Origin: Deltaproteobacteria bacterium
GTDB lineage: Bacteria > Desulfobacterota > Syntrophia > Syntrophales > UBA6807
DNA: 35,444 nucleotides
Direction of reading: 5' to 3'
NCBI GenBank assembly: GCA_011056835.1
Contig: DSDU01000236.1
Coordinates: 1 to 35,444, forward strand
Of the stretch, positions 15,994 through 34,954 are shown piece after piece. The stretch's first letter is position 1, and every line of letters begins with the position of its first letter. A program made the translations under genes and the position numbers. The notes below the pieces were generated by a model, which was given only the letters and a program-made list of their open reading frames with translations, was not told the origin of the DNA and ran no database searches.

Positions 15994-17667
15994 ATGGACA
16001 ATTATTTCAAAAAGGCGGCCGTAAGAATTTACTGTGACGCCAAACGTGAAGGACGACTTATTGAGGGTAAATCTCTGGGTGAATTGAAAGAGCTGGCACT
16101 CCGACAGGAAGGGGTCATTCAGACCCATATCGGCTCGGTTGCCGCGGATTCGGAACCCATGTCACGATCGGCGCCCCATACAAAGAATAATATTGATGAT
16201 ACCTTCGGACCTGAAGAGGAATTGTTGGCGACGCATGCCGTCGAATGCCTGGGAAATGAAAAGATCGTATCAGTCGATACGATCGTCGGTGACGGCAGGG
16301 ACGGGGTAACCGTTCGGTTCATAATGCCGGAAGCTTTTACTCATATGGCATACGGCTTGAAACTGCTCTTTGAAGACTCGCCGGCATCGAGGGTTGTTGA
16401 CAATCCTACCTATACAATCATTTTTTTTACCGATGAGTACTTTGAACCGAACAAGTTTAAAAAATTGATTGATAAGGATATAACCGTTCGTCTCTGGATG
16501 GGGGAGGAACGGGGCGATCAGGTCAAAATATGCCGCAACACCACGTACCTTGGCGAAGGGAAAAAAGGAGTTTTTCAGTTTGAAAGCTGGCGTGTGAAAA
16601 CCATTGATAAGCTCGGCATTTTTCTTCATTGCGGCGCACGAAAAGATTACCTCTGGATTTACGATCTTGAAACAGAAAGGCCTGAACTGCAGGAACGGGT
16701 GACGGGGGTTTCAGGACTGACCGCTACGGGGAAGACAACGACCCTTTGCAGGAAACTGGCAAAACTTCCGAGAGAATCTTCGGAAATGCTCGGTGATGAC
16801 GGCGGCACCCTCGGATGCGACGGAAGCTACACGGCGTTTGAGATGGGCGGAGTCTACATTAAAACGGAAGGCCTTGACGAAAGCCAGCCGGAGATCCTCC
16901 GTGCCGCTCTTGCATCAGACACATTTCTTGAGAACGTCGCCATTTCCCGCTATCCTTATATGCCTGATTTCAAGGATACCGGGAAAACCGGCAACGGCCG
17001 GGCCATTATCAGAAGAGATAAGCTGGGGCTCGCCAGCAAGGGATTGCGGGCGGACAAGGTAGATTACATCATCATGCTCACAAGAAACCCCCTCGCCAAT
17101 GTGATATCGAGACTGACACCCGAGCAGGCTACCATGCAGTTTATTTACGGTGAATCGATCGAGAGTACCGGCGGGAACCCCGATGAGGCCGGTAACTTTA
17201 AACGGGTATTTTTTCTTGATCCCTTTGTTACGGGTGATCGTCTGGAACATGCCATGCTCTTTTACAGCATCATCAAAAAAAACCGCATCAAATGTTATCT
17301 GGCCAATACGGGTACCATCGGCGAACATGATGAGAAAGTGACGCTCCGTCAGTCACTTGCTTCATACAGTGACATTCTTCGGGTGCAGTTGCGCTTCGGC
17401 ACCGATCCGGATCATCTCGGGTATCATCATCCCATAAAAAGTGACCGGGCAAACATGGATTATATGATTGCGTACCCCAAATTCTTCGAAAAGGAATTAT
17501 TGATATCAAAGGTCAAGGATTTCATGAAGGGACGTCAGGCGTACCTGGAGAAATTCGAATCGACATGGGGAGCGATTCCTGATCATATCAGAAATTCACT
17601 GCCTTATCGGCATGATCAGATCGATTTTTCGTTCCTGAAGAAGGAATCGTTGGGCTATATCGAGTAA
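15994..17667 (+). CDS. pckA: Phosphoenolpyruvate carboxykinase, ATP-type, divergent
   Basis: This 557-residue cytoplasmic enzyme would interconvert oxaloacetate plus ATP with phosphoenolpyruvate, ADP and CO2. The ATP-type fold is recognised from LGEGKKGVF (the two active-site Lys), FLHCGAR (metal-binding His), the P-loop GLTATGKTTT (241-250) in place of GLSGTGKTT, the metal-binding LGDDGG (266-271), and ENVAISRYPY with the second substrate Arg (319). VISRLTPEQATMQFIYGES closes the adenine site. The N-terminal oxaloacetate loop (RSPKDK in E. coli) is poorly conserved; SRSAPHTKN at about 57-65 may be its remnant. The protein belongs to a divergent branch, so the nucleotide and reaction remain a prediction. 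It lies 114 bp after korB in the same direction. Confidence 0.82.
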   Translation: MDNYFKKAAVRIYCDAKREGRLIEGKSLGELKELALRQEGVIQTHIGSVAADSEPMSRSAPHTKNNIDDTFGPEEELLATHAVECLGNEKIVSVDTIVGDGRDGVTVRFIMPEAFTHMAYGLKLLFEDSPASRVVDNPTYTIIFFTDEYFEPNKFKKLIDKDITVRLWMGEERGDQVKICRNTTYLGEGKKGVFQFESWRVKTIDKLGIFLHCGARKDYLWIYDLETERPELQERVTGVSGLTATGKTTTLCRKLAKLPRESSEMLGDDGGTLGCDGSYTAFEMGGVYIKTEGLDESQPEILRAALASDTFLENVAISRYPYMPDFKDTGKTGNGRAIIRRDKLGLASKGLRADKVDYIIMLTRNPLANVISRLTPEQATMQFIYGESIESTGGNPDEAGNFKRVFFLDPFVTGDRLEHAMLFYSIIKKNRIKCYLANTGTIGEHDEKVTLRQSLASYSDILRVQLRFGTDPDHLGYHHPIKSDRANMDYMIAYPKFFEKELLISKVKDFMKGRQAYLEKFESTWGAIPDHIRNSLPYRHDQIDFSFLKKESLGYIE

Positions 17668-19251: not shown

Positions 19252-21117
19252 TCAGTAATCAAACGGCGATATCCTGTCGCCGTACTTTTCCCGAGCTTTC
19301 AGCAAGCGCTGCTTTTGTTCATCAAGAAGCTCGAACAACAGGGGCGGCGTTTCGGCTACCTTGTTGTAAATTGATACTATGCGATCAATTTTCGCCAGAT
19401 TCTCTGTCACGCGGCAGCTGAACTGCCTGACATATGAGTCACGGGTGTAATCCTTCTTCAACACTTCTTTAAAGAGGCGCCTCAGGTCTTCATAAACAGG
19501 AATTAATCCGGTGGGTGTCGTCAGGGCGTCTGCTTCGCCGTGAATGCGCAGCTCCATCCACTTGACCCAGACATGCTTGTCATGCATGCCCGTCAGATAG
19601 ACTCCCTTTTCCCTCTGAAAATAATTGACTGCAAATATAACGGGTATCATGTCGAGGTATTTCGCGAAGTCCAGGTGCATCTTTATGTACGTGCCGATCG
19701 GCATGGAGAGAAAATCCAGATTCGACATCGGATTGAAACTGAGCACTCCTTCACGGTCAAGCGTTGCGGCGGTGGTTTCCGATTCGAGACTTGCCCCCTT
19801 GGTGATGACACCATGATTCCAGTCGAAAGCCTCTTCGCAGGGAACGGATATATCCGAATCTCGGCCTCCGTAAATGATTCCTGAGATGGGGACGCCGTCG
19901 GGGTTGTCAATATTCGTGTCGCAGTTCTCCAGTTCCATCTGGCTGATCGTGTACCGGGCATTTTTATGCGCCAGGGGGATGATGTTGCCTTTGGCATCCC
20001 TCTTGCCTTCGAACCATTCACCGGAATGATTAATCCCTCGCTTCGGGGTGTCGCGGCCGTCGCCGAGCCAGTACGGAACACCGTCACTGACGAGTACATT
20101 TGAGAAAATGACTTCGCGGGGCGTTGTCAGGGCCTTGTATATGACCGGATCGTCTTTTTCACTGATATCCTGAACGATCCCGAAAATGCCGCTTTCGGCG
20201 TTGGCGCCGTAGACTTTTCCGGCCCGCTTCCGCAGATATGCAAGATCGTCACCGAGGATGTATTCACCGGGCAGCATGGCCGTGGATGTTTTACCGCACA
20301 TGCTCGGGTACGCTCCGGTCAGATACGTGACCCTTTGATGGGGGCCTTTAACGCCAAGAATGAACATATGTTCGGCAAGCCAGGCTTCCCGGGCGGCCTT
20401 CCTGATTGCCAGTCGGAGGGAGAGCTTTTTAAGCCCGACGGTATTTCCTGCATACTGGGTGTTTACACTGTAGACGAGTTCTTCTTCCAGATCAATGTAG
20501 ACCCGCCGCTTGTCGATGTTCTTGCTGATATTATGATCATCCAGTTCCCCGGCTGAGTGAAGAATTCGGAAGAACTCCTTCGAGGATCCGATATTTTTAA
20601 ACTGTTCATACCCGGGACGATACAGCAGGCTTTCGCTATGAGCCACATAGGCGGAATCGGTTATCTGGCAGCACGAAATGGAAAAATCTGAGTTGGTCGG
20701 ACCGAGGCTGAGGAATCGCACGATCATCACTTTATCCTTCATGATGCCGTTGAACAGCATCCGACTCTCTTCCTCTCCCGATTCTTTATCGATGGCATTG
20801 ATGTTGACGCCGAGATCCTTTCCTTCAGGCAGCAGGTATCTCGTGTGCTCCTTATCACGGGCCTGGTCGAGATAGCCGTCGAAATGTACCGTGTGTCCCT
20901 CAATGGCGAGAGGAATCTCTTCGCCCTGATCAAGGGCCAGTTGCCTAATGTATTTGATATCCTCAGGCGCGTCGGTGCAGATAAAGACTGATCTGGGGCG
21001 ACACGTTGTAATGGCGTTGGCAACAAATCGGTGGAGCTTTTCATTTCCAAGCGCCATGAGTTTTGTAAAGTTGACTCCGTCGATTGACGATTTCAGTACG
21101 TTCAGGACATGTTTCAT
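19252..21117 (-). CDS. pckG: Phosphoenolpyruvate carboxykinase, GTP-type
   Basis: This 621-residue cytoplasmic enzyme would convert oxaloacetate to phosphoenolpyruvate using GTP, or run in reverse. GTP-family hallmarks are clear: GNTVGLKKLSLRLAIRKAAREAWLAEHM, the P-loop with reactive Cys in AYPSMCGKTSTAM (Cys274), metal-binding ILGDDLAYL, NAESGIFGI, IFSNVLVSDGVPYWLGDG, NARYTISQM, and PISGIIYGGRDSD followed by VPCEEAFDWNHGVITKGASLESE. Length is normal. Substitutions against well-studied enzymes include PSMCGKTSTAM for PSACGKTNLAM. It converges on the phosphofructokinase gene; a possible -10 box TATAAA lies about 25 bp upstream of the start. No sequence similarity to the ATP-type enzyme at 16-17.7 kb is expected or seen beyond the P-loop. 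Confidence 0.93.
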   Translation of the reverse strand: MKHVLNVLKSSIDGVNFTKLMALGNEKLHRFVANAITTCRPRSVFICTDAPEDIKYIRQLALDQGEEIPLAIEGHTVHFDGYLDQARDKEHTRYLLPEGKDLGVNINAIDKESGEEESRMLFNGIMKDKVMIVRFLSLGPTNSDFSISCCQITDSAYVAHSESLLYRPGYEQFKNIGSSKEFFRILHSAGELDDHNISKNIDKRRVYIDLEEELVYSVNTQYAGNTVGLKKLSLRLAIRKAAREAWLAEHMFILGVKGPHQRVTYLTGAYPSMCGKTSTAMLPGEYILGDDLAYLRKRAGKVYGANAESGIFGIVQDISEKDDPVIYKALTTPREVIFSNVLVSDGVPYWLGDGRDTPKRGINHSGEWFEGKRDAKGNIIPLAHKNARYTISQMELENCDTNIDNPDGVPISGIIYGGRDSDISVPCEEAFDWNHGVITKGASLESETTAATLDREGVLSFNPMSNLDFLSMPIGTYIKMHLDFAKYLDMIPVIFAVNYFQREKGVYLTGMHDKHVWVKWMELRIHGEADALTTPTGLIPVYEDLRRLFKEVLKKDYTRDSYVRQFSCRVTENLAKIDRIVSIYNKVAETPPLLFELLDEQKQRLLKAREKYGDRISPFDY

Positions 21118-24848: not shown

Positions 24849-25427
24849 ATGAAGAGATCGTTTGTGAAGATGGCGGCGATTTTGGGTATCCTCATGCTGA
24901 CAGGCACTTCGTCGGTCATTGCCGGGGAAGAAGTCCTCACCAAAGGAGCATTCTTTCCTTCGGTTAAACTGGCTGTTCCCGATGATGCGGCCCATAAGAA
25001 ATATCTCGGCCTGTCCGGGAGTGGGAAATTCGATATACCCGATATTGCGGCACACGTGGTTATTGTCGAAATATTCAGCATGTATTGTCCCCACTGTCAG
25101 AAAGAGGCTCCTGCCGTCAATGAATTGTATCGAATCATAGAGAATAACCCCATGGCGAGGGGAAAGGTTAAACTCATCGGAATCGGAGCAGGAAATTCAC
25201 CTTTCGAGGTTGATTATTTCAGAGAGACATATGCCGTGCCGTTCCCTTTGTTTCCTGACAAGGATTATGCAATCCATGATAGGATAGGAGGGGTTCGGAC
25301 ACCGTTTTTTTACGGGGTTGCCATTACAAAGGGGAAACCTGCTGAAATATTTTTCACCTACGAGGGAAAGTTTGAAACGGCCGATTCATTTCTCGAACTA
25401 ATCCTGAAGGAATCAGGGCTTAAATGA
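24849..25427 (+). CDS. Exported thioredoxin-fold protein with CPHC motif (TlpA/ResA-like)
   Basis: This 192-residue protein has a signal peptide (MKRSFVKMAAILGILMLTG to about Ala25) and a thioredoxin-like fold in the periplasm. The active site is CPHC (Cys80, Cys83) in VVIVEIFSMYCPHCQKEAP, the dipeptide PH as in DsbA rather than the GP of thioredoxin. The cis-Pro loop appears in GVRTPFFYGVAI, with Thr before Pro. These are its only cysteines. The next gene, 13 bp downstream, encodes an exported peroxiredoxin, suggesting this protein is its reductant or that both serve periplasmic redox control. An AAAGGAGG ribosome-binding site precedes the start. Confidence 0.88.
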   Translation: MKRSFVKMAAILGILMLTGTSSVIAGEEVLTKGAFFPSVKLAVPDDAAHKKYLGLSGSGKFDIPDIAAHVVIVEIFSMYCPHCQKEAPAVNELYRIIENNPMARGKVKLIGIGAGNSPFEVDYFRETYAVPFPLFPDKDYAIHDRIGGVRTPFFYGVAITKGKPAEIFFTYEGKFETADSFLELILKESGLK

Positions 25428-25440
25428 GGAGGGTGGTGAC

Positions 25441-26037
25441 ATGAGAACAAAAATATCCTTGATCGGAATGGCAGTCATCCTGTCAATCTGTATGATCGCC
25501 GGAAATGCCTTCGGGGTCTCGTCGGTATATGAAAACAATATTTATAATACGGGGATGTTGAAGCCAGTCGACAGTGTTCTCAAGGTGAAAGCGGGCGATC
25601 CCGCCCCGGACTTCGCCCTCCCGTCGGTGAAGAATGGCATGGTGTCCCTGAGCCGGTTCAAAGGGAAGAAGAATGTCGTCTTGTCGTTTATCCCGGCCGC
25701 GTGGACGCCGGTATGTTCGGATCAGTGGCCGGGCTACAACATCGCCAGGCAGGTCTTCGAAAAATATGATGCGGTTCTTCTGGGAATATCGGCGGATAAT
25801 ATTCCGACCCTCTTTGCATGGACGAATCAGATGGGAGATCTCTGGTTTCCCATTCTTTCCGACTTCTGGCCGCACGGCGCGCTTGCGCAGAAACTGGGTG
25901 TCCTTCGATCGGACGGGACAACCGAACGGGCCATTTTTATCATCGATAAAAACGGTATCATCCGTTATATCGATGTCCATGATATCAACAGGAGGCCGCC
26001 CCTTGAAGATATCGTGAGAGAACTGCAAAAGCTTTAA
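25441..26037 (+). CDS. Exported peroxiredoxin (AhpC/TSA family), single catalytic cysteine
   Basis: This 198-residue protein carries a signal peptide (to about residue 25) and a redoxin domain: GDPAPDFALPS, then FIPAAWTPVCSDQWPG with the peroxidatic Cys92 after the conserved Thr-Pro-Val. It would reduce peroxides in the periplasm. No other cysteine remains in the mature protein, so the thiol that resolves the sulfenic acid must come from a partner, probably the CPHC protein encoded 13 bp upstream. FIIDKNGIIRYIDVHDINRRPPLEDIVREL closes the domain. GAGGAGGG precedes the start. Confidence 0.9.
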   Translation: MRTKISLIGMAVILSICMIAGNAFGVSSVYENNIYNTGMLKPVDSVLKVKAGDPAPDFALPSVKNGMVSLSRFKGKKNVVLSFIPAAWTPVCSDQWPGYNIARQVFEKYDAVLLGISADNIPTLFAWTNQMGDLWFPILSDFWPHGALAQKLGVLRSDGTTERAIFIIDKNGIIRYIDVHDINRRPPLEDIVRELQKL

Positions 26038-26260: not shown

Positions 26261-28498
26261 TCAGCGCTGATTCTTCAACTCCTCCTTAACGGCCAGTCCC
26301 AAGCTTTGTAATGTCAACGGCTTCTTTATATAGTTGCCCGCTCCGAGCGTCTGGGCCGCCTTGACCTCATCAGTTTGGGCAAACCCGCTGACGATGATGG
26401 CTTTTTGTTTCGGGTGGATCCTCCGTATCCTCTCGAATGTTTCACGACCGTTTATGCCCGGATCCATGATCATGTCGAGCACGAGTAAATCAACGGTATT
26501 CTCTGTCAAATATTCAACGGCCTCTTCACCGCTTGACACGGCTATCGGTTTATACCCCAGTTTATTCAGCATAGTGCAGGATATTTCCCGCTGGCTTTCC
26601 ACGTCGTCGACAACCAGAATCGTCTCTCCATTCCCTGTCAGATCGCTCATGGGAATGGTCGAGATCGTATTCGATAGTTCATCCCGTGTTATCGGGATGT
26701 ATACCTCGAATGTCGTGCCGTTCTCGCTGCTTTTCACATCAATGTAGCCTTCGTGATCCTGCGTTACATGCCATACCACGGCCAATCCCAGACCGGTGCC
26801 GCTTCTGCCCATGACTTTCTTTGTATAGAACGGCTCGAATATCCTCTCAAGATCGCCTGATGAAATTCCCGAACCATCGTCCGATACGGACAAAACGGCA
26901 TATTCACCGATGGTGACATGATCATACCCTTTTAAAGACTGATCGATGTAACGGTTCTCCGTCGCTATGGCAACAGTTCCGTTTCCCTCAATAGCTTCAG
27001 ATGCATTCGACACCATGTTCATGATGATCTTCCTTATATGAATCGGAGAACCGCATATGTTAAGCAGGTTGGGATCAAGGGTGCTCGTGATGGTGACGGC
27101 GGGATGAAACTGCAGAAGCTTTTTAAACTCCGGAGAATCCAAATAATCACGTACCGCGTCATTCAGGTTCAGAGGTTCTTTAATAGTTGCAACGCCCCGT
27201 GCTACCGTCAGCAGGTCCTGGACGATGGCAGTCGCCCTGTGCCCGGATTGCTGCATCGTCTCGATGGGCTTTCTGAGCTTGCTGTCTTCAGGCAGGTCCA
27301 GCAGGAGTAGTTCCGGATAACTGACAATCCCCGACAGGACATTATTCAGGTCATGGGCAACCCCGCCTGCCAGAAGTCCCAGGGATTCCATTTTCTGGGA
27401 TCGTTGGAGTTTGGACTGGAGGACCGCCTTTTCATCTTCTGCTTTTATGTGTTCAGTTATATCCGATACGATCCCATCGTAATGGGTAATAGTTCCTTCC
27501 CCGTCCCTTCGTAAGAAGGTCATATGATCAAGCCACTTTATACTCCCATCTTTTGCAAAAACTCGATACCGGCTGAGAAAAAAATCTTTTCCCCATGAAT
27601 CTCTGAGGAATTTTCTGTCTTTCTCCCTTAATTTTTCCAGATCTTCAGGATGGATTATTTCCGCATACGTAATGGCCCCCGAAGTAAAATCTTCTGCTTT
27701 GTAACCCAACATCTTCTCGACATTGTCCGAAACATACTCTATCGGCCATCCCTCTGCGTTTATCCACAGAAAGGCGACTGCCGGACTTCTGTTGATAATT
27801 TTATGGCCCTCTCTCACGGCTTCCTCCGCTTTTTCCCGCGCTTCGATTTCCTTCTGGAGGATCAGGTTGGATTCTTCGAGATGCTGTGATCTGTCTTCAA
27901 GGAGCGAAAGAGACTCTTTGAGACGATTGAGGAACATCTGGGGGATGAAGACAAATCCTACCGTTATCATTAAGAATACCATCCCGGTGGTGGCCCAGGC
28001 AAGCAGCGACGTTGAATTAAGCATATGTTCCTGGTGAACGGGCAAGAACCCTGAGATCAGGCCTGCAGCCACGCCGGCGACCGCCATTGTGCTGACTCCA
28101 ATGACGGCGAGACCGGTTCTGACCCCCCAGAAAACCGCCGAGAGCAGACAGGCCAGGATCATGATTTCGAGACCGATTCCGCTGAGGCCGATCCGGATCA
28201 TGACTGCGACGGAATAGAGATAAAGACCGACAACAAGGACCATGGCACGGGAGGAAAAAGTTATGCGGTCCAGAATGAAGGCAGTGAAAACTGTACCGTA
28301 AATGCTCAGATAGATGAGGGAAAACAGATGCCGGCCCTGCTGGAAGGCCTGAATGGCTCCCAGAAACGCGGCGATGAGACCGAGTGTCAATACCGGCCAT
28401 TTCAGTGCCGCGAGGATTCTTTTTCGCACCTCCAGGATCTCCGGCCTCTCTTGTGTTCCATCGATAAAATAGAAACGTCCCGGTTTAGAATTTTTCAT
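26261..28498 (-). CDS. Membrane hybrid histidine kinase with PAS and receiver domains
   Basis: This 745-residue inner-membrane sensor would autophosphorylate on His and pass the phosphate to its own receiver domain. In order: six or so hydrophobic segments (about 30-195), a coiled coil (195-232), a PAS domain with PAC-like end (235-355), the dimerisation/His domain (His382 in GGVAHDLNNVLSG), the ATPase domain (N box NMVSNASEAIE; G1 SDDGSGISS; F box ERIFEPFYTKK; G2 GTGLGLAVV) and a C-terminal receiver (Asp631-Asp632, phospho-acceptor Asp675 in LLVLDMIMDP, Lys725). No output domain or partner regulator gene adjoins it, so the phosphate must leave via an unlinked protein. Two palindromes and a likely promoter lie upstream. 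Confidence 0.94.
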   Translation of the reverse strand: MKNSKPGRFYFIDGTQERPEILEVRKRILAALKWPVLTLGLIAAFLGAIQAFQQGRHLFSLIYLSIYGTVFTAFILDRITFSSRAMVLVVGLYLYSVAVMIRIGLSGIGLEIMILACLLSAVFWGVRTGLAVIGVSTMAVAGVAAGLISGFLPVHQEHMLNSTSLLAWATTGMVFLMITVGFVFIPQMFLNRLKESLSLLEDRSQHLEESNLILQKEIEAREKAEEAVREGHKIINRSPAVAFLWINAEGWPIEYVSDNVEKMLGYKAEDFTSGAITYAEIIHPEDLEKLREKDRKFLRDSWGKDFFLSRYRVFAKDGSIKWLDHMTFLRRDGEGTITHYDGIVSDITEHIKAEDEKAVLQSKLQRSQKMESLGLLAGGVAHDLNNVLSGIVSYPELLLLDLPEDSKLRKPIETMQQSGHRATAIVQDLLTVARGVATIKEPLNLNDAVRDYLDSPEFKKLLQFHPAVTITSTLDPNLLNICGSPIHIRKIIMNMVSNASEAIEGNGTVAIATENRYIDQSLKGYDHVTIGEYAVLSVSDDGSGISSGDLERIFEPFYTKKVMGRSGTGLGLAVVWHVTQDHEGYIDVKSSENGTTFEVYIPITRDELSNTISTIPMSDLTGNGETILVVDDVESQREISCTMLNKLGYKPIAVSSGEEAVEYLTENTVDLLVLDMIMDPGINGRETFERIRRIHPKQKAIIVSGFAQTDEVKAAQTLGAGNYIKKPLTLQSLGLAVKEELKNQR

Positions 28499-28549
28499 AT
28501 ATTAATACTCACCACAGTGCCTGCTCACTCCGGTTCATTATCGGCATCT

Positions 28550-28565
28550 GATAAGAAATTCTTTT
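28550..28565. promoter_or_regulatory. Palindromic site 1 upstream of the hybrid kinase gene
   Basis: GATAAGAAATTCTTTT contains the perfect inverted repeat AAGAA-N-TTCTT. It matches site 2 at 15 of 16 bases and lies about 52 bp before the kinase start codon. It is probably a binding site for a dimeric regulator. Confidence 0.55.
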
Positions 28566-28624
28566 GATGTGAATTGATGAGGTCTATCTGAGGAATACTG
28601 CCTTTTCGTGAATGGTGCGATTCC

Positions 28625-28640
28625 GATAAGAACTTCTTTT
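28625..28640. promoter_or_regulatory. Palindromic site 2 upstream of the hybrid kinase gene
   Basis: GATAAGAACTTCTTTT differs from site 1 only at the centre of the palindrome and lies exactly 75 bp from it. It sits just downstream of the predicted -10 box, where a bound repressor would block the start of transcription. Confidence 0.55.
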
Positions 28641-28652
28641 TTCGCGACGGGA

Positions 28653-28679
28653 ACTATAAGAAAAAAGGCTTTAAGTCAA
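28653..28679 (-). promoter_or_regulatory. Putative sigma-70 promoter of the hybrid kinase gene
   Basis: On the minus strand TTGACT (28679-28674) and TATAGT (28658-28653) are separated by 15 bp, short of the optimal 17. Each hexamer has five of six consensus bases. Transcription would start near 28646, next to palindrome site 2. Confidence 0.5.
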
Positions 28680-28921
28680 TGGAATATTTGTCGCACAAAG
28701 TTTGCGGGGCTCCGATGAACAGACGTGGAGTGTTCCCGGGTACGGGACAACGTATGTGGGATAGGTCCGTCAATGACTCCGCCGTTAATGGATGATATCG
28801 GAACGTTCGAAGCATTTCACCACTTCTGCCCGTTTACGGATATATCGCCGGTTGTCCGGGAATGAAAGACAGGATGGGATGTGATGATTCCCCCGCTTTT
28901 TCGACTTCCCGTGAGGTTCGA

Positions 28922-29884
28922 TCAGGCCTTGAATGTTAGTTTTGTTCCCGACATATTCAGTATGAATTGATCGGGCATCTCCCGTTCAATGTTCATAATC
29001 GCCTTTCTGCCCGTGCAGTGGCAGGGAACGACATAATCAGGGTTGATTTTTTTCAGCTCTTCCGTGGTCCGGCCGATGATCGGCTCAAAGAGCGGACCGG
29101 AAAGATGGAAACCTCCCATAACGGCATGCACTTTGTCGATGCCTGTAATTTTCCGCGCATAGTTTACAGAATTAACAATACCGGCATGGGCGCAACCTGA
29201 AAGGACAACCAGTCCCTTGCCCTTCAGATTCATGACGATCGACGTGTCGTCTTCAATGGGATCCCATGTTTCGACCCCGTTAGCCACGCAGAAAGCTATG
29301 GGGAAACCCTTTTCAAAGTCGTTTGTTCGCTCGACTTCACCCAGGAACAGGGCATTACCGTCAAGAAGCGGATACGGATCGGCGGTTGTAACAAGATTGC
29401 AGCCGGCCTGGATGATGCTTTCTTTTTCCACGCGTGGGAAATAGGCTTTGAGTTTTTCGCTGAACTTGAGGTATCGAGGATATTTAAAAGCGCCGGGGTG
29501 AAGGACCAGGTCAATGCCGGGTTTTTCTATCATGCGAACCAGGGCATCAAATCCGCCGAAATGATCGGAGTGGCCGTGAGAGAGGGCCATTTGTTCAACA
29601 GAATTCATGGAGACGCCTAATTTGCGTGCGTTATAAGCCGCCCCCTCCGCTGAAAAGCCGAAATCGAATAAAAGGGTTCGTGTCTGATCATTGGCGGTAA
29701 TATTCACCAGTGCGGCAAAGCCGTGTTCCGCCTGTATTGAGGTGTCGATGATTCCATTCGCCGATACGCCGACCGCCCGTCTGATGATGTCGCTATGATC
29801 TGTTGCGGTAATTTCGATGTAATTGTCCTGAAGAGTCAGGATCTCGATTCCATCCACCGCATTAAGGCTTGTGTTGTTCGCCAT
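28922..29884 (-). CDS. MBL-fold metallo-hydrolase (dihydropterin/RFA-P synthase-like family)
   Basis: This 320-residue cytoplasmic protein has the metallo-beta-lactamase fold. The dimetal-binding motif is SHGHSDHFGG (His103, His105, Asp107, His108), with further ligands in VLSGCAHAGIVNSVNYAR, GGFHLSG and VPCHCTG. This arrangement matches the group often annotated as 7,8-dihydropterin-6-methyl-aminobenzene phosphate synthase, but most members are uncharacterised and that name should not be taken as function. It is the last gene of the ORP-like cluster, 60 bp after the Mrp fusion, with GAAGGAGG before the start. A minus-strand TATAAT at 29910-29905 could give it an independent promoter, though the -35 box is poor. 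Confidence 0.88.
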   Translation of the reverse strand: MANNTSLNAVDGIEILTLQDNYIEITATDHSDIIRRAVGVSANGIIDTSIQAEHGFAALVNITANDQTRTLLFDFGFSAEGAAYNARKLGVSMNSVEQMALSHGHSDHFGGFDALVRMIEKPGIDLVLHPGAFKYPRYLKFSEKLKAYFPRVEKESIIQAGCNLVTTADPYPLLDGNALFLGEVERTNDFEKGFPIAFCVANGVETWDPIEDDTSIVMNLKGKGLVVLSGCAHAGIVNSVNYARKITGIDKVHAVMGGFHLSGPLFEPIIGRTTEELKKINPDYVVPCHCTGRKAIMNIEREMPDQFILNMSGTKLTFKA

Positions 29885-29944: not shown

Positions 29945-31189
29945 CTAGTGATCGCAGATATTGTCGCCCAGGATCAGCTCGCCGTTCAAGTATGCCGTCA
30001 CCACCTTTTGTGGCTCGTCGGCTGAAGCACCGATACATACTTTTATTCCCTTGTCGGTGAAGAGTCCCTGTGCCCGTTGGCCCATACCGCCGGCAAGAAT
30101 TACATCCGTTTGTCGTTCGGCAAGCCAGACCGGCAGCAGTCCGGGTTCATGCGGCGGGGCGGCAAGTCTCGTTTCCGCGAGGATTTCTTTGGCTTCCGTG
30201 TCGACATCAAAGAGGGCGAATTCCTCGCAGTGTCCGAAATGGGCGCTGAGTCGTCCCTGCGCAACGGGAACCGCAATTCTTAGATTGCCGTCTTTTTTGG
30301 CGGGAAGGTTCTCGTCGGGCCCGGACTTTGATGTTTCCCGTTCCGGTATGTGCAGGATCGGCTCAACAGCCTTTGAAAAAGCTTTTGCTGCCTCGGTTTT
30401 CGAATAATGATAGACAAACGGTTTTCCAGCATCCGATGCCTCGACAATCATCGGCTCAATGGGAATTCTTCCCAGGAAGGGAACTCCCATCTGAGCGGCC
30501 ATGGCTTCTCCACCGCCCTTTTTGAAGATGTCGATCACATTTTTACAATGCGGACAGACGAGACCGCTCATGTTTTCCACAACACCCAGCACAGGCACAT
30601 TGACCTGGCGGCAAAAGTTGATGCACTTTTTAACGTCGTTGATGGAAAGGTCCTGTGGTGTCGTGACAATAATCGCACCATCACTGCCGGGAATAAGTTG
30701 TGCCACAGACAGCGGTTCATCGCCGGTGCCGGGAGGGAAATCAATAACAAGATAATCCAAGTCTCCCCAGTTAACTTCAGTGAGAAGCTGTTTGATGACA
30801 TTCATCTTCATCGGTCCCCGCCAGATGACCGCATCGTCATGATTCGGGAGCATAAAGCCGATTGACATAACCTTAATGTCATCGGTAAAGTTAACCGGCA
30901 GAATGGATTTTCCGTCCGAAGTCGGACGAGCATCATTGAGGTTGAGCAGGGTCGGAATGCTTGGTCCGTGAAAGTCCGTATCCAATATTCCCACTTTCTT
31001 GCCTTCAAGGGCAATGGCGACGGCGATGTTAGCCGCGACGGTGCTCTTACCGACGCCCCCTTTGCCCGACAGGACCATTATTTTATGCTTGATGCGGCCA
31101 AGATTGCTTTTGAGGTCGGCGTCTTCCGTAAATTTTTTGAGGTTTTCACCTCCTTTATTTTCAGGTTTGTCGTTTTTTTTGTTACCCAT
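29945..31189 (-). CDS. mrp: Mrp/NBP35-type ATPase fused to an ORP/NifX-like domain (MrpORP-like)
   Basis: Mrp proteins are P-loop ATPases that carry iron-sulfur clusters to target proteins. Residues about 30-285 are the Mrp domain: deviant Walker A SGKGGVGKST (41-50), then FPPGTGDEPLSVAQL, and the cluster-binding CPHC (Cys212, Cys215). After a linker of about 15 residues, residues 302-405 form a dinitrogenase-cofactor (NifX/NifB C-terminal, MTH1175-like) domain, starting RIAVPVAQGRLSAHFGHCEEFALFDVD. This fusion matches MrpORP of Desulfovibrio, where the second domain resembles the orange protein that binds a molybdenum-copper-sulfide cluster. It probably delivers a metal cluster to the ORP-like protein encoded upstream. 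The radical SAM gene ends 33 bp upstream. Confidence 0.9.
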   Translation of the reverse strand: MGNKKNDKPENKGGENLKKFTEDADLKSNLGRIKHKIMVLSGKGGVGKSTVAANIAVAIALEGKKVGILDTDFHGPSIPTLLNLNDARPTSDGKSILPVNFTDDIKVMSIGFMLPNHDDAVIWRGPMKMNVIKQLLTEVNWGDLDYLVIDFPPGTGDEPLSVAQLIPGSDGAIIVTTPQDLSINDVKKCINFCRQVNVPVLGVVENMSGLVCPHCKNVIDIFKKGGGEAMAAQMGVPFLGRIPIEPMIVEASDAGKPFVYHYSKTEAAKAFSKAVEPILHIPERETSKSGPDENLPAKKDGNLRIAVPVAQGRLSAHFGHCEEFALFDVDTEAKEILAETRLAAPPHEPGLLPVWLAERQTDVILAGGMGQRAQGLFTDKGIKVCIGASADEPQKVVTAYLNGELILGDNICDH

Positions 31190-31222
31190 AGGTACATTCC
31201 CCTTTCATAAGAACTCTTTTAT

Positions 31223-32185
31223 TCATATACTATTTTTGATGTTATTTCCAATTCGAAGATACAAGACTTTATCGCCTCGTTTTTCCATTCGGATCATTTT
31301 TTTATCTCTTAACTCCTGCACATATTTTATGACCTCATTGCGATGCAGTGACAGTCCATTCGCAAGATCGTCAATCGTGCAGGGACGTCTCTGAAGTGTC
31401 TCCAGAATATCATCCCGGGTTGAGTGAAATTCCCGTCGTTCATGGATCTTATCGTAGTCGGCCACGACTTCGCACCTGTCGCCGAATACGTTTCGCATTG
31501 CTTCCATGGTTTCCCGACCAACCGACCGAACGAAATCTTCCGCCGGTGTCCTGATTGCGGTATTGAGCTGAATGAATTCGGGTACAATCCGGTCTGTCAG
31601 AACCTTCATTTTTGCAACAGCATCGGGATTATCGCTGATGCCGCCGACAAGGAAAACTTCAAGCCATATCGCTCCACTGTAGTGTGTGCGCAGGGATTGC
31701 AGCCCCTTGATCATTTTTTCGAAGGAAATGTCCGGGTGCGGTCGGTTGATGCGCTGAAACATGGCTTCATCGCCGCCATCGAGAGACGGCACGATAAGAT
31801 CGGCCTTTCTCACAGCGTCGAGGACCTCGTCCATCCAGAAAAGCGATCCATTGGTGAGCACCGCGACGGGAATATCCGTCATGTTTTTGATTCCTGCGAT
31901 AATATCTTTCATGCCGCTGTGCAGGGTCGGTTCACCGGAGCCGGACAATGTAATGTAATCGGGCCTCGGAATTTCTATCAATTTCTGCCGGACCTGTGCG
32001 AGAAGATCATCAAGAGGAACATATCCCCTGATTTCGGTTGTTTTGTGGGTCGTTCTGCCAAGCTGGCAGTAGATGCAATCGTATGAACACGTTTTGTAAG
32101 GAACGAGATCAACCCCCAGCGATCGGCCGAGACGTCGCGACGGCACGGGGCCGAACACATATTTTCGTATTCTTTTTTGTTCCAT
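31223..32185 (-). CDS. Radical SAM protein with C-terminal winged-helix domain
   Basis: This 320-residue cytoplasmic protein carries the radical SAM motif CSYDCIYC (Cys33, Cys37, Cys40) binding one [4Fe-4S] cluster. The preceding FGPVPSRRLGRSLGVDLVPYKT defines a common but uncharacterised family. Residues about 255-315 form a winged-helix-like module (DDILETLQRRPCTIDDLANGLSLHRNEVIKYVQELRDKKMIRMEKRGDKVLYLRI), hinting at DNA or RNA contact or at a redox-switch domain. The substrate is unknown. Only 5 bp separate it from the FmdB gene, so it is an integral part of the operon; modification of a protein or cofactor of the ORP-like complex is possible. Confidence 0.88.
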   Translation of the reverse strand: MEQKRIRKYVFGPVPSRRLGRSLGVDLVPYKTCSYDCIYCQLGRTTHKTTEIRGYVPLDDLLAQVRQKLIEIPRPDYITLSGSGEPTLHSGMKDIIAGIKNMTDIPVAVLTNGSLFWMDEVLDAVRKADLIVPSLDGGDEAMFQRINRPHPDISFEKMIKGLQSLRTHYSGAIWLEVFLVGGISDNPDAVAKMKVLTDRIVPEFIQLNTAIRTPAEDFVRSVGRETMEAMRNVFGDRCEVVADYDKIHERREFHSTRDDILETLQRRPCTIDDLANGLSLHRNEVIKYVQELRDKKMIRMEKRGDKVLYLRIGNNIKNSI

Positions 32186-32190
32186 GCATG

Positions 32191-32454
32191 TCAGCTTTCA
32201 CATGGCTTTACATCACACGGAGTCGCCTTTCCGCAACATGTTGACTCCCTGCCGCAACGGGTGCCTGTGCCTTGGGCTGTGTAGTCCGTGGCATGGAATC
32301 CCGGACCCTTGAAGATTATGCCGCCCCCCATTCCGATCAATTTTTCAACTGCGCCCCCGCATTCGGGACAGACGGTTATCGGGTCGTCCGTCATTTTCTG
32401 AAATTGTTCAAATTCATGCCTGCATGCGCTGCATCGGTATTCGTATGTCGGCAT
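32191..32454 (-). CDS. FmdB-family zinc-ribbon protein
   Basis: This 87-residue protein opens with MPTYEYRCSACRHEFEQFQKMTDDP and continues with VCPECGG, the four-cysteine zinc ribbon of the FmdB family, whose members are small putative regulators of unclear role. After GPGFHATDYT the tail is unusually cysteine-rich (RCGRESTCCGKATPCDVKPC, six Cys), which could bind additional metal. The start at 32454 was chosen over an in-frame ATG at 32481 because AGGAGG lies directly upstream and the family begins exactly there. It sits 60 bp after the second ferredoxin-ATPase gene and 5 bp before the radical SAM gene. Confidence 0.9.
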   Translation of the reverse strand: MPTYEYRCSACRHEFEQFQKMTDDPITVCPECGGAVEKLIGMGGGIIFKGPGFHATDYTAQGTGTRCGRESTCCGKATPCDVKPCES

Positions 32455-32514
32455 TGTGTCCTCCTGATACTGTATGTTCATGTTGTGAAGCGGGCAAACC
32501 CCGATAATACCGCT

Positions 32515-33405
32515 TCATCCCAAGGCGTACACAACATTTCTCCATAATGTCTTAATGTCTTCGGAGACGGCGCCGCCGGTGTATTCAACAACGCTGGTTC
32601 TCATAACCTGAGCTTTCGTAATTGCCGTATCATACCGCACCTTGCCGGCAACCTTCATTCCGTTTTCACGGGCTTCCCGTTCTATGTCATCGCTGATTTG
32701 AGGATTTATATCCCACTTGTTAATACACACCAATGTGGGTATGCGAAAATGGCTCGCCAGTTGCGACACCCTCATGAGGTCATGTTTGCCCGACAGCGTC
32801 GGTTCGGTGACCACCAATACAAGATCGGCGCCGGTTATGGATGCGATGACCGGGCATCCGATGCCCGGTGAACCATCAACAATAATATAATCAAGGGCCT
32901 CACGTTCGGCAATTTGTCGTGCCTCTTTTCGTACCAGTGTTACCAGTTTCCCTGAATTTCCTTCAGCCATGCCGAGCCGTGCATGTACCATGGGGCCATA
33001 ATTGGTTGTTGAGACATACCACTCACCGTTGACGGCCGGCTCGAATGCAATGGCGTCTGCCGGACAGACGCGATGGCATACGCCGCATCCTTCGCAGTGG
33101 ATTTGGTTTATGTTCGGAACCTCCGCTTCAGCGCCGTCATCCGTTTGCGGGTAATGAATCGCATCGAAACGGCACTCCTCGATGCACCGGTTACAGGCGA
33201 TACAGGCATCTTCGAGTATGCGGGCCTTTTTGCCGCCGCTGAAATCCTCCCGGTACTCGATATGGGGATTGAGAACAAGATGTAAATCGGCTGCGTCGAC
33301 ATCGCAGTCGGCCAAAACTTTTTTTGAGGCCAGGGCTGCGAATGACGCCACAATGCTCGTTTTACCCGTACCTCCTTTGCCGCTTATTACGATAAGTTCT
33401 TTCAT
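32515..33405 (-). CDS. MinD/ParA-type ATPase with inserted two-cluster ferredoxin domain (second of pair)
   Basis: This 296-residue cytoplasmic protein combines a deviant Walker A ATPase (ISGKGGTGKTSIVASFA, residues 7-23) with two [4Fe-4S] motifs inserted after the first strands: C68-C71-C74-C78 and C104-C107-C110-C114. The ATPase resumes at DYIIVDGSPGIGCPVIASI and VVTEPTLSGKHDL. It is of the same length and plan as the gene upstream, and the two are separated by 2 bp, so they are probably co-translated partners. In Desulfovibrio a matching pair belongs to the orange-protein locus. ATP-driven electron transfer or cluster assembly is a plausible role but has not been shown for this family in general. 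Confidence 0.93.
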   Translation of the reverse strand: MKELIVISGKGGTGKTSIVASFAALASKKVLADCDVDAADLHLVLNPHIEYREDFSGGKKARILEDACIACNRCIEECRFDAIHYPQTDDGAEAEVPNINQIHCEGCGVCHRVCPADAIAFEPAVNGEWYVSTTNYGPMVHARLGMAEGNSGKLVTLVRKEARQIAEREALDYIIVDGSPGIGCPVIASITGADLVLVVTEPTLSGKHDLMRVSQLASHFRIPTLVCINKWDINPQISDDIEREARENGMKVAGKVRYDTAITKAQVMRTSVVEYTGGAVSEDIKTLWRNVVYALG

Positions 33406-33407
33406 GA

Positions 33408-34298
33408 TTATTTCTCCGCTGCCCCCTCGTAGTATGCAACGCGTGATGCGATGTCGTTTTCCAATTCGATAATGTGCGACCAGCAGGTGGTGAAAACCTC
33501 CCGGTATTCGGGAATGGCACGAACGATCATGTCACCCCGGGAGTACGCTTCGGCAACCCTTCGATCGTCCGGCATCTCAAGCACAATAGGAATGTTTTCT
33601 CTTTCACAGTAACGTTTTACATCGTCCGTTCCCACATCGGACCTGTTAACGGCAACCGCAGACGGCAGTTTCAGCTCACGCGCCATGCCGACGGCCAGTT
33701 CCAGGTCATTAAGTCCGAACGGTGTCGGTTCGGTAACGAGGAGCACGAAATCTGCGTCTTTGACCGCTTCAATCACCGGACAGGATGTGCCTGGCGGTGA
33801 ATCGAGAATAATAATATCCGAGTCTGACGCCGAGTCCTTTACTCCCCGAATGACGGCGGGAGACATTAATTCTCCGATATTAAGAAGTCCATGGATAAAC
33901 TGAATGCCATTGCTGGTCCCCGACTCGATGATTCCCACTTCTCTTTCTTTTTCCACTATGGCGTCTTCGGGACAGAACAGCATACAGGCCCCGCAACTGT
34001 GGCAGAGTTCGGGGAAAATCAATACCTCGCCTTTTATGACAACAATGGCATTATATTCACACACATCTGCACAGATTTCGCAGCCCGTGCATTTTTCTTT
34101 GATGACTGTCGGCAACGGCACCGTCTGAGTTTTCGACGATTCGATGACAGGCTTCAGGAAAATATGGCAGTTGGGTTCCTCGACGTCACAGTCGAGAAGT
34201 TGGACTGTTTTTCCCGCATCAACCAACATGAGTGCCAGATTTGTCGCTATTGTCGTTTTACCGGTGCCGCCTTTTCCACTGGCGATTGCAATTTTCAA
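33408..34298 (-). CDS. MinD/ParA-type ATPase with inserted two-cluster ferredoxin domain (first of pair)
   Basis: This 296-residue protein has the deviant Walker A ASGKGGTGKTTIATNLAL (about 6-23), then LLDCDVEEPNCHIFL, a ferredoxin insert with C70-C73-C76-C80 and C99-C102-C105-C109, and the second ATPase half DIIILDSPPGTSCPVIEAV and LVTEPTPFGLNDLELAV. It is a paralogue of the next gene, and the two probably form a heterodimer. Additional cysteines at 37 and 44 lie beside the switch region. The gene starts 44 bp after the ORP-like gene, with a ribosome-binding site GGAGCG just upstream. Confidence 0.93.
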   Translation of the reverse strand: MKIAIASGKGGTGKTTIATNLALMLVDAGKTVQLLDCDVEEPNCHIFLKPVIESSKTQTVPLPTVIKEKCTGCEICADVCEYNAIVVIKGEVLIFPELCHSCGACMLFCPEDAIVEKEREVGIIESGTSNGIQFIHGLLNIGELMSPAVIRGVKDSASDSDIIILDSPPGTSCPVIEAVKDADFVLLVTEPTPFGLNDLELAVGMARELKLPSAVAVNRSDVGTDDVKRYCERENIPIVLEMPDDRRVAEAYSRGDMIVRAIPEYREVFTTCWSHIIELENDIASRVAYYEGAAEK

Positions 34299-34342
34299 CA
34301 GTAGTCGCTCCTTTCCGGGGGAAGTATCCTGATTGTATACGA

Positions 34343-34954
34343 TTATCGCTGCTTCTTCTTTTCCGTCTCTTCTATTCGCTTTTGGATGTCCTGAAGCTGT
34401 TCCTGGAGAAACCGGGCCTGTTCTTTCAGGGATTCCAGATCTGCCGAATCAGATGTTGCATCCGGTTGGGGCGCAGTGCCGGCTGTTTTCGTTACTGCCG
34501 CTCCCGTTGCCATGCCCATTCCTCGTCCCATTCCGCCGCCGCCACCCATGCCACGACCGCCTCCCATGCCACGGCCCGTTCCGGCGGCGCCACCCATGCC
34601 GAAGTGACTTTGCACATTGGGTTTGGTTACAGTATTAAATGCGCCGGCTTTGAATTGACTGACGGCGTCGCTGACGCGCCCCGAGACGCCCACGATAACC
34701 TGCACACCCGCTGCGCCGAATACTCGAAATGCGTTCGGACCACAGTTCCCGGTGAGGATATATTTTACATCACGGTCAGCCATAAGCTGGGCTGACTGTA
34801 TGCCTGCTCCGCCGCCGGCTGCCATGTTCGGATTTTGCATGGTCTCAACGTTCATTGTATCAGTGTCGACTATGACATAATACGGCGCGCGACCGAAACG
34901 CGCTTCAACCGCGGCTTCCATTGAAGGGCCTTGTGCTGTGACGGCTATTTTCAT
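34343..34954 (-). CDS. ORP/NifX-like protein with Gly/Met-rich linker and C-terminal coiled coil
   Basis: Residues 1-112 of this 203-residue protein form a dinitrogenase-cofactor-type domain (MKIAVTAQGPSMEAAVEARFGRAPYYVIVD; later ILTGNCGPNAFRVFGAAGVQVIVGVSGRVSDAV), the fold of the molybdenum-copper orange protein and MTH1175. Residues 118-152 are a low-complexity stretch of Gly, Met and Arg (repeats of GRGMGGG). Residues 172-203 are a heptad-like coiled coil. The linker and coil are additions to the domain itself. The coil resembles the end of the DUF5320-like protein two genes upstream. The start overlaps the stop of the small Cys-rich ORF by four bases (ATGA). The role may be binding a metal cluster supplied by the Mrp fusion. 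Confidence 0.9.
   Translation of the reverse strand: MKIAVTAQGPSMEAAVEARFGRAPYYVIVDTDTMNVETMQNPNMAAGGGAGIQSAQLMADRDVKYILTGNCGPNAFRVFGAAGVQVIVGVSGRVSDAVSQFKAGAFNTVTKPNVQSHFGMGGAAGTGRGMGGGRGMGGGGGMGRGMGMATGAAVTKTAGTAPQPDATSDSADLESLKEQARFLQEQLQDIQKRIEETEKKKQR

Follow-up and report, generated by a model that had tools for sequence, protein, structure and literature searches.

The 232-bp oriIS region of ISCR1 carries outward promoters, PCR1-1 (TAAACG-N17-TAAGAT) and PCR1-2 (TTCGGA-N18-TTTATA), whose ability to drive adjacent genes has been demonstrated (PMC6218425). Most of what is known about outward promoters of IS91-type ends concerns ISCR1 and antibiotic-resistance genes, and we describe here a dispersed promoter family across a bacterial order. 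Near-identical promoter copies dispersed before unrelated genes have reportedly been recognized as putative mobile promoters in studies of promoter propagation in prokaryotes. The present family resembles them in its scattered near-identical copies, and differs from them in that a carrier element is identified and in that the family extends over an order and into parts of the phylum. As in ISCR1, an outward promoter, here a predicted one, in an oriIS-containing region would drive whichever gene follows. Unlike in ISCR1, the family promoter is near consensus (TTGACA-17-TATACT), the genes that follow have metabolic or regulatory roles and are not resistance genes, and the transposase, compared with ISCR clade Ia, scored far under the cut-off of the model of that clade (NF052416; 139.8 vs 925 bits). 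With the IS91 family, the elements share a transposase with Zn_Tnp_IS91 and Y2_Tnp domains, a 3′ end about 240 bp after the stop codon, and an asymmetrical organization; a repeat search of three long copies gave no inverted repeats fit for a classical terminal-repeat element. The window (the whole stretch of DNA that was analysed, 35,444 nucleotides) differs in apparently holding an end only, without a transposase, and transposase genes are far fewer than solo ends in this lineage.

The preliminary description of the window reported two near-identical palindromes upstream of a hybrid histidine kinase gene and read them as binding sites of a dimeric regulator. The two 16-mers are as described: they lie 75 bp apart from start to start on the upstream side of the kinase gene, share 15 of 16 bases, and each show perfect AAGAA-N-TTCTT symmetry, with the mismatch at the centre (Table 1). 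One was placed near the predicted transcription start and the other closer to the kinase gene, which is right because the gene is on the minus strand. We conclude that the first palindrome is most probably the tip of a solo IS91-family 3′ (oriIS-type) end, kept by the host as the predicted promoter of the kinase gene. No transposase gene is present from 28498 to the next gene at 28922, so the locus would be a solo end and not an element. The module is predicted to supply the kinase promoter, with a start near 28646. The promoter spacer is 15 bp, which is below optimal, vs 17 bp in most family members; a promoter scan missed this promoter because the scan admits only spacers of 16–18 bp.

Table 1. 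Positions of the features at the kinase locus in the window.
Feature	Position	Strand	Sequence or remark
Module: AT-rich upstream box, sigma70-like promoter, terminal leader	28623..28703	(-)	probable solo 3′ (oriIS-type) IS91-family end
-35 element (predicted)	28674..28679	(-)	TTGACT; TTGACTT kept in congener L053
-10 element (predicted)	28653..28658	(-)	TATAGT; family consensus TATACT; TATATT at the same place in L053
First palindrome, terminal module leader	28625..28640	(-)	AAAAGAAGTTCTTATC, kinase sense; about +7 to +22 of the predicted transcript
First site	28625-28640	plus	GATAAGAACTTCTTTT
Second palindrome, putative partial tandem second leader copy	28550..28565	(-)	AAAAGAATTTCTTATC, kinase sense; sequence-model match
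Second site	28550-28565	plus	GATAAGAAATTCTTTT
Ribosome-binding-like sequence	28508..28513	(-)	GGTGAG, 9 nt before ATG
Hybrid histidine kinase gene (MASE11, PAS, HisKA, HATPase, receiver)	26261..28498	(-)	predicted to be read from the module

Pairs of 5-1-5 palindromes no more than 150 bp apart and with no more than one mismatch in 16 were counted directly. The window contained one such pair vs none in 60 simulated windows, and the same count gave none in 1.19 Mb of real DNA of four related genomes. The bare 11-mer AAGAANTTCTT occurred at 16 places genome-wide vs 17 for the reversed control; the search with this 11-mer that had been proposed as a route to a regulon thus yielded no genome-wide excess. 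The region 28400–28930 had no family match in Rfam, and GAAAAAGGAAGTTCTTATCA had no exact match in viral contigs.

We searched 155 genomes of the order with the 192-bp stretch that precedes the kinase gene as the query. Many partial matches were obtained, several per genome, and the best ones ended at the first palindrome, which forms the final 16 bp of a module of about 80 bp (28703–28623 on the minus strand). The consensus of 36 aligned copies from outside the genus was CCCCAnATTTTGTGGTCAATATTCCA-TTGACA-CACAAGACCnTTTTTC-TATACT-CCCnCCACG-AAAAAGGAAGTTCTTATCAA, where AAAAAGGAAGTTCTTATCAA is the leader consensus of the family. A sequence-only model built from these 36 copies, none of which came from the genus of the window, matched the window module with 56.5 bits and an E-value of 5.5e-17 (the E-values for the module are rough). 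The module was present in 152 of the 155 genomes and in all 53 genera of the order, with dozens of copies per genome (mostly at least 28 scored candidates), as well as in 101 genomes of a 297-genome sample of the phylum; a match was also present in a Syntrophus record (L075). In 1.19 Mb of stretches, mostly chosen regardless of matches, 33 module matches reached an E-value of 0.01. Copies were slightly more alike within genomes than between genomes in the variable columns (permutation p 0.017). We found no description of the module motif in the literature.

As the initial copies were retrieved through their similarity to the window, the figures for that set are biased towards it; evidence independent of the palindromes is given by an unsupervised motif search, the transposase link and an orientation count. 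The unsupervised search of the DNA after the −10 of 106 consensus sigma70-like promoters from four genomes returned AAAGnaagTtcTtATcAA in about half of them, with a log-likelihood ratio of 151 vs 56–70 in shuffles and 84 in upstream controls. Motif searches in single genomes were weak and the pooled search was clear. A stricter score lowered the share of promoters with the leader (in the sampled stretches, 21 of 117 were clear cases), and the fraction therefore depends on the threshold. In 72 of 81 copies, the leader motif began 10–12 bases past the −10, and across the 81 copies conservation ended directly after TATCAA. For 87 copies outside called ORFs, the next gene was on the same strand in 84 cases, on the opposite strand in 2, and absent in 1, as judged from simple ORF calls, with a median of 53 bp between the module and the start codon. 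The orientation of the gene on the other side of the module was 46:30. The near-total bias indicates that the copies behave as real host promoters, and for this reason does not prove the direction of borrowing. The motif recovered without supervision, the nearly fixed distance of the leader to the −10, and the orientation towards genes all speak for a lineage-wide host promoter class whose conserved first-transcribed sequence is read by RNA polymerase, an RNA-binding factor or a global regulator and was captured only secondarily by IS91-family elements; the many module genomes with few or no Y2_Tnp genes point the same way.

We took several copies from each of five genomes and compared them all against all. 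The similarity stopped at TATCAA in nearly every pair, and its 5′ extent ranged from 58 to 310 bp. Upstream of some copies we found the end of a protein, YGDPEYSWDDYIQS followed by the stop codon, which belongs to an IS91-family transposase. An intact 455-aa ORF of this protein (L369) matched NCBIfam NF033538 with 173.9 bits against a cut-off of 125 and contained Y2_Tnp (PF04986) and Zn_Tnp_IS91 (PF14319) domains. In three families (G093 and G055; G100; and G000, the genome of the window), the module came about 240 bp behind the stop codon of a complete or decayed transposase. The distance from transposase to module end on the same strand was 234–248 bp in L199, L351/L369, L184/L364, L190 and L362; measured from the C-terminal end of the protein fragments, it was 234–242 bp in L199, L351, L184 and L190. 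Fragments of IS91 transposases were found near 14 of 122 module copies and were on the same strand in all 14. Contig C37 of G000 holds the second-best module of this genome, 243 bp after a decayed IS91 transposase. The sharp stop at TATCAA together with a transposase about 240 bp before it indicates that the module is most likely an oriIS end. Counting against this reading, the window locus itself shows no transposase remnant, a transposase is missing from the neighbourhood of most copies, and in several genomes rich in copies no Y2_Tnp could be recognised. The host promoter class set out above is nevertheless distinctly unlikely in our judgement: the 3′ end is sharp with nothing conserved beyond it, several subfamilies have further non-coding sequence in common, reaching to −170 or −310, which is superfluous for a promoter, and in elements from several families the module follows the transposase stop at a constant interval. 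Both this additional common sequence and the sharp end favour the view that the elements would have brought the promoter to the host.

Three other candidates for the leader were tried. Recognition of a host leader as RNA was downgraded once the upstream sequence proved to be IS91 3′ ends. An IHF site (WATCAANNNNTTR) was rejected, as TATCAA and an A-tract are there but 81 copies gave no TTR signal at the distance that such a site requires; the A-tract together with TATCAA resembles the lambda H′ site. A boxA/NusB antitermination signal was also rejected, as the boxA of an rRNA leader from the same order (G008), GTTCTTTCACAA, has only GTTCTT in common with the leader.

In regards to conservation, another species of the genus (L053/L024; the L053 contig is the same as in G001) has retained both sites ahead of its orthologous kinase gene; there the kinase is 78% identical and the inter-site spacing is 74 bp vs 75 bp in the window. 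The identity to L053 was 39% in the upstream flank, 62% in the 81-bp module, 84% in the first leader and 91% in the second site (20 of 22 bases), compared with 68.5% across the first 900 coding bases of the kinase gene. The sites are better kept than the flank and are therefore constrained, and constraint alone fits several explanations. One of them was that of the preliminary description, in which the two sites are operators and a dimeric repressor loops the intervening 59-bp stretch. The perfect dyad in both sites, the 75-bp spacing and the retention of both sites in the congener agree with it. However, the perfect AAGAANTTCTT is rare in the family (4 of 81 and 0 of 41 members), and the symmetry is therefore incidental. 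The leader consensus of the family in the form AAGGAAGTTCTTATCAA has no perfect dyad, GCAATGTCTTATCAA and GCAATGCCTTATCAA are frequent forms, and variants such as GCAATGTCTTATCAA abolish the symmetry. In the congener, the second site has lost its outer pair (CAGAA-T-TTCTT). The lack of a genome-wide excess of the 11-mer, the lack of a common function among the downstream genes, the fixed distance of the first site from the −10, and the exact end of related copies at TATCAA beside IS91-family transposase genes also argue against operators. We regard looping operators as highly improbable. What stands of the original interpretation is that the promoter-proximal DNA is conserved, as L053 shows; the dimer operator does not stand, as the dyad is absent from nearly all of the family. 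What looks like an operator, a near-palindrome beside a start site, can instead be the tip of a transposon.

The sequence model also matched the second site (28576–28547; 11.1 bits, a rough E-value of 0.008 over the window), and downstream second copies were found at 3 of 112 family loci including the window vs 0.15 in shuffles. The second palindrome is probably a shortened second copy of the tip, which could have arisen by another end insertion or by an aberrant rolling-circle event. It is conserved as well as the first palindrome, which its being a relic does not fully explain. The second site might have been kept because both sites act as RNA, forming a long-range stem of 10–11 bp in the leader of the kinase mRNA, an explanation compatible with a solo end. 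The best predicted fold pairs the two sites in both species, and the congener leader folds better than shuffles (z −2.44). The window leader, however, folds no better than shuffles (z 0.12), all 10 common pairs are invariant and hence show no covariation, and any two copies of a palindrome pair automatically; we consider such a stem unlikely.

With the first palindrome taken as the tip of a solo end, the end of an IS91-family rolling-circle element would have been inserted upstream of the kinase gene before the two species of the genus split. The end would bring a sigma70-like promoter pointing out of the element, which the host would have retained for the kinase. The leader AAAAAGRAAGTTCTTATC would be the terminal sequence, where the similarity of the elements stops and where the transposase plausibly nicks, and the AAGAA-N-TTCTT symmetry would be a by-product of the local form of this sequence. 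The origin of rolling-circle plasmids of the pC194/pUB110 family is TTTCTTATCTTGATAATA, with the nick region TTTCTTATCTTGATA (PMC7072734). The module tip TTCTTATCAA has the 8-mer TTCTTATC in common with this origin, a match of 8 bases only that may be due to chance. As IS91 transposases are related to the Rep proteins of the pUB110 family, according to a work cited in a passage of PMC5714925, the tip TTCTTATCAA is a candidate nick site, which we offer as a lead by analogy.

The genes behind the modules include those for sensor kinases, diguanylate cyclases, stress proteins and metabolic enzymes. Among 76 downstream proteins, none of 85 Pfam families occurred in more than two proteins, and a functional regulon was rejected since these proteins have no common family. 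The orientation and the mixed genes are what retained outward promoters at scattered insertions, and not a regulon, would look like. The solo IS91-family ends could form a living mobile-promoter network in the order, in which minimal, transposase-less ends of about 85–310 bp are mobilized in trans and retained almost exclusively at places where they activate the downstream gene; we hold this to be possible, although rather doubtful. If so, a large share of the near-consensus promoters in these bacteria would be of transposon origin. If the dispersed promoter family is confirmed, a large-scale rewiring of bacterial gene expression by transposon ends becomes testable.

Several variants of the module were observed. 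Stretches of G019 (L248, L258 and others) contained a related promoter form with a common spacer GGAACTTCCC before TATATT and the leader GCAATGTCTTATCAA, which is possibly another subfamily of ends. L161 (G018) and L162 (G150), from two families, had a nearly identical 90-bp module variant with unrelated genes downstream and transposase fragments upstream of both. L323 (G100) and L334 (G138), also from two families, had the same 144 bp directly after TATCAA of two module subtypes, which looks like an exchange, at that point, of either the promoter or the downstream piece. L354 (G093) contained two divergent module copies about 150 bp apart, facing away from each other. At G000:C37:22930-23838 (L364, L217), a decayed IS91-family transposase with one in-frame TAG was followed by the module and then by a putative lipoprotein gene. 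Contigs broke within the module at G000:C37:27480-27547, G055:C14:1-78 and G055:C92:1-78, which is expected because a multi-copy repeat confuses assembly.

In the window, the region adjoining the kinase gene (29945–34954) encodes Mrp/NUBPL-like and MinD-type ATPases with ferredoxin domains, Nitro_FeMo-Co proteins, a radical SAM protein and a metallo-beta-lactamase fold protein, a cluster that we take to be reminiscent of orange-protein-type metal-cluster loci. Two adjoining AhpC/TSA-family genes (24849–26037) lie just past the 3′ end of the kinase gene. Genes for the ATP-type and GTP-type phosphoenolpyruvate carboxykinases (15994–17667 and 19252–21117) are located less than 4 kb apart.
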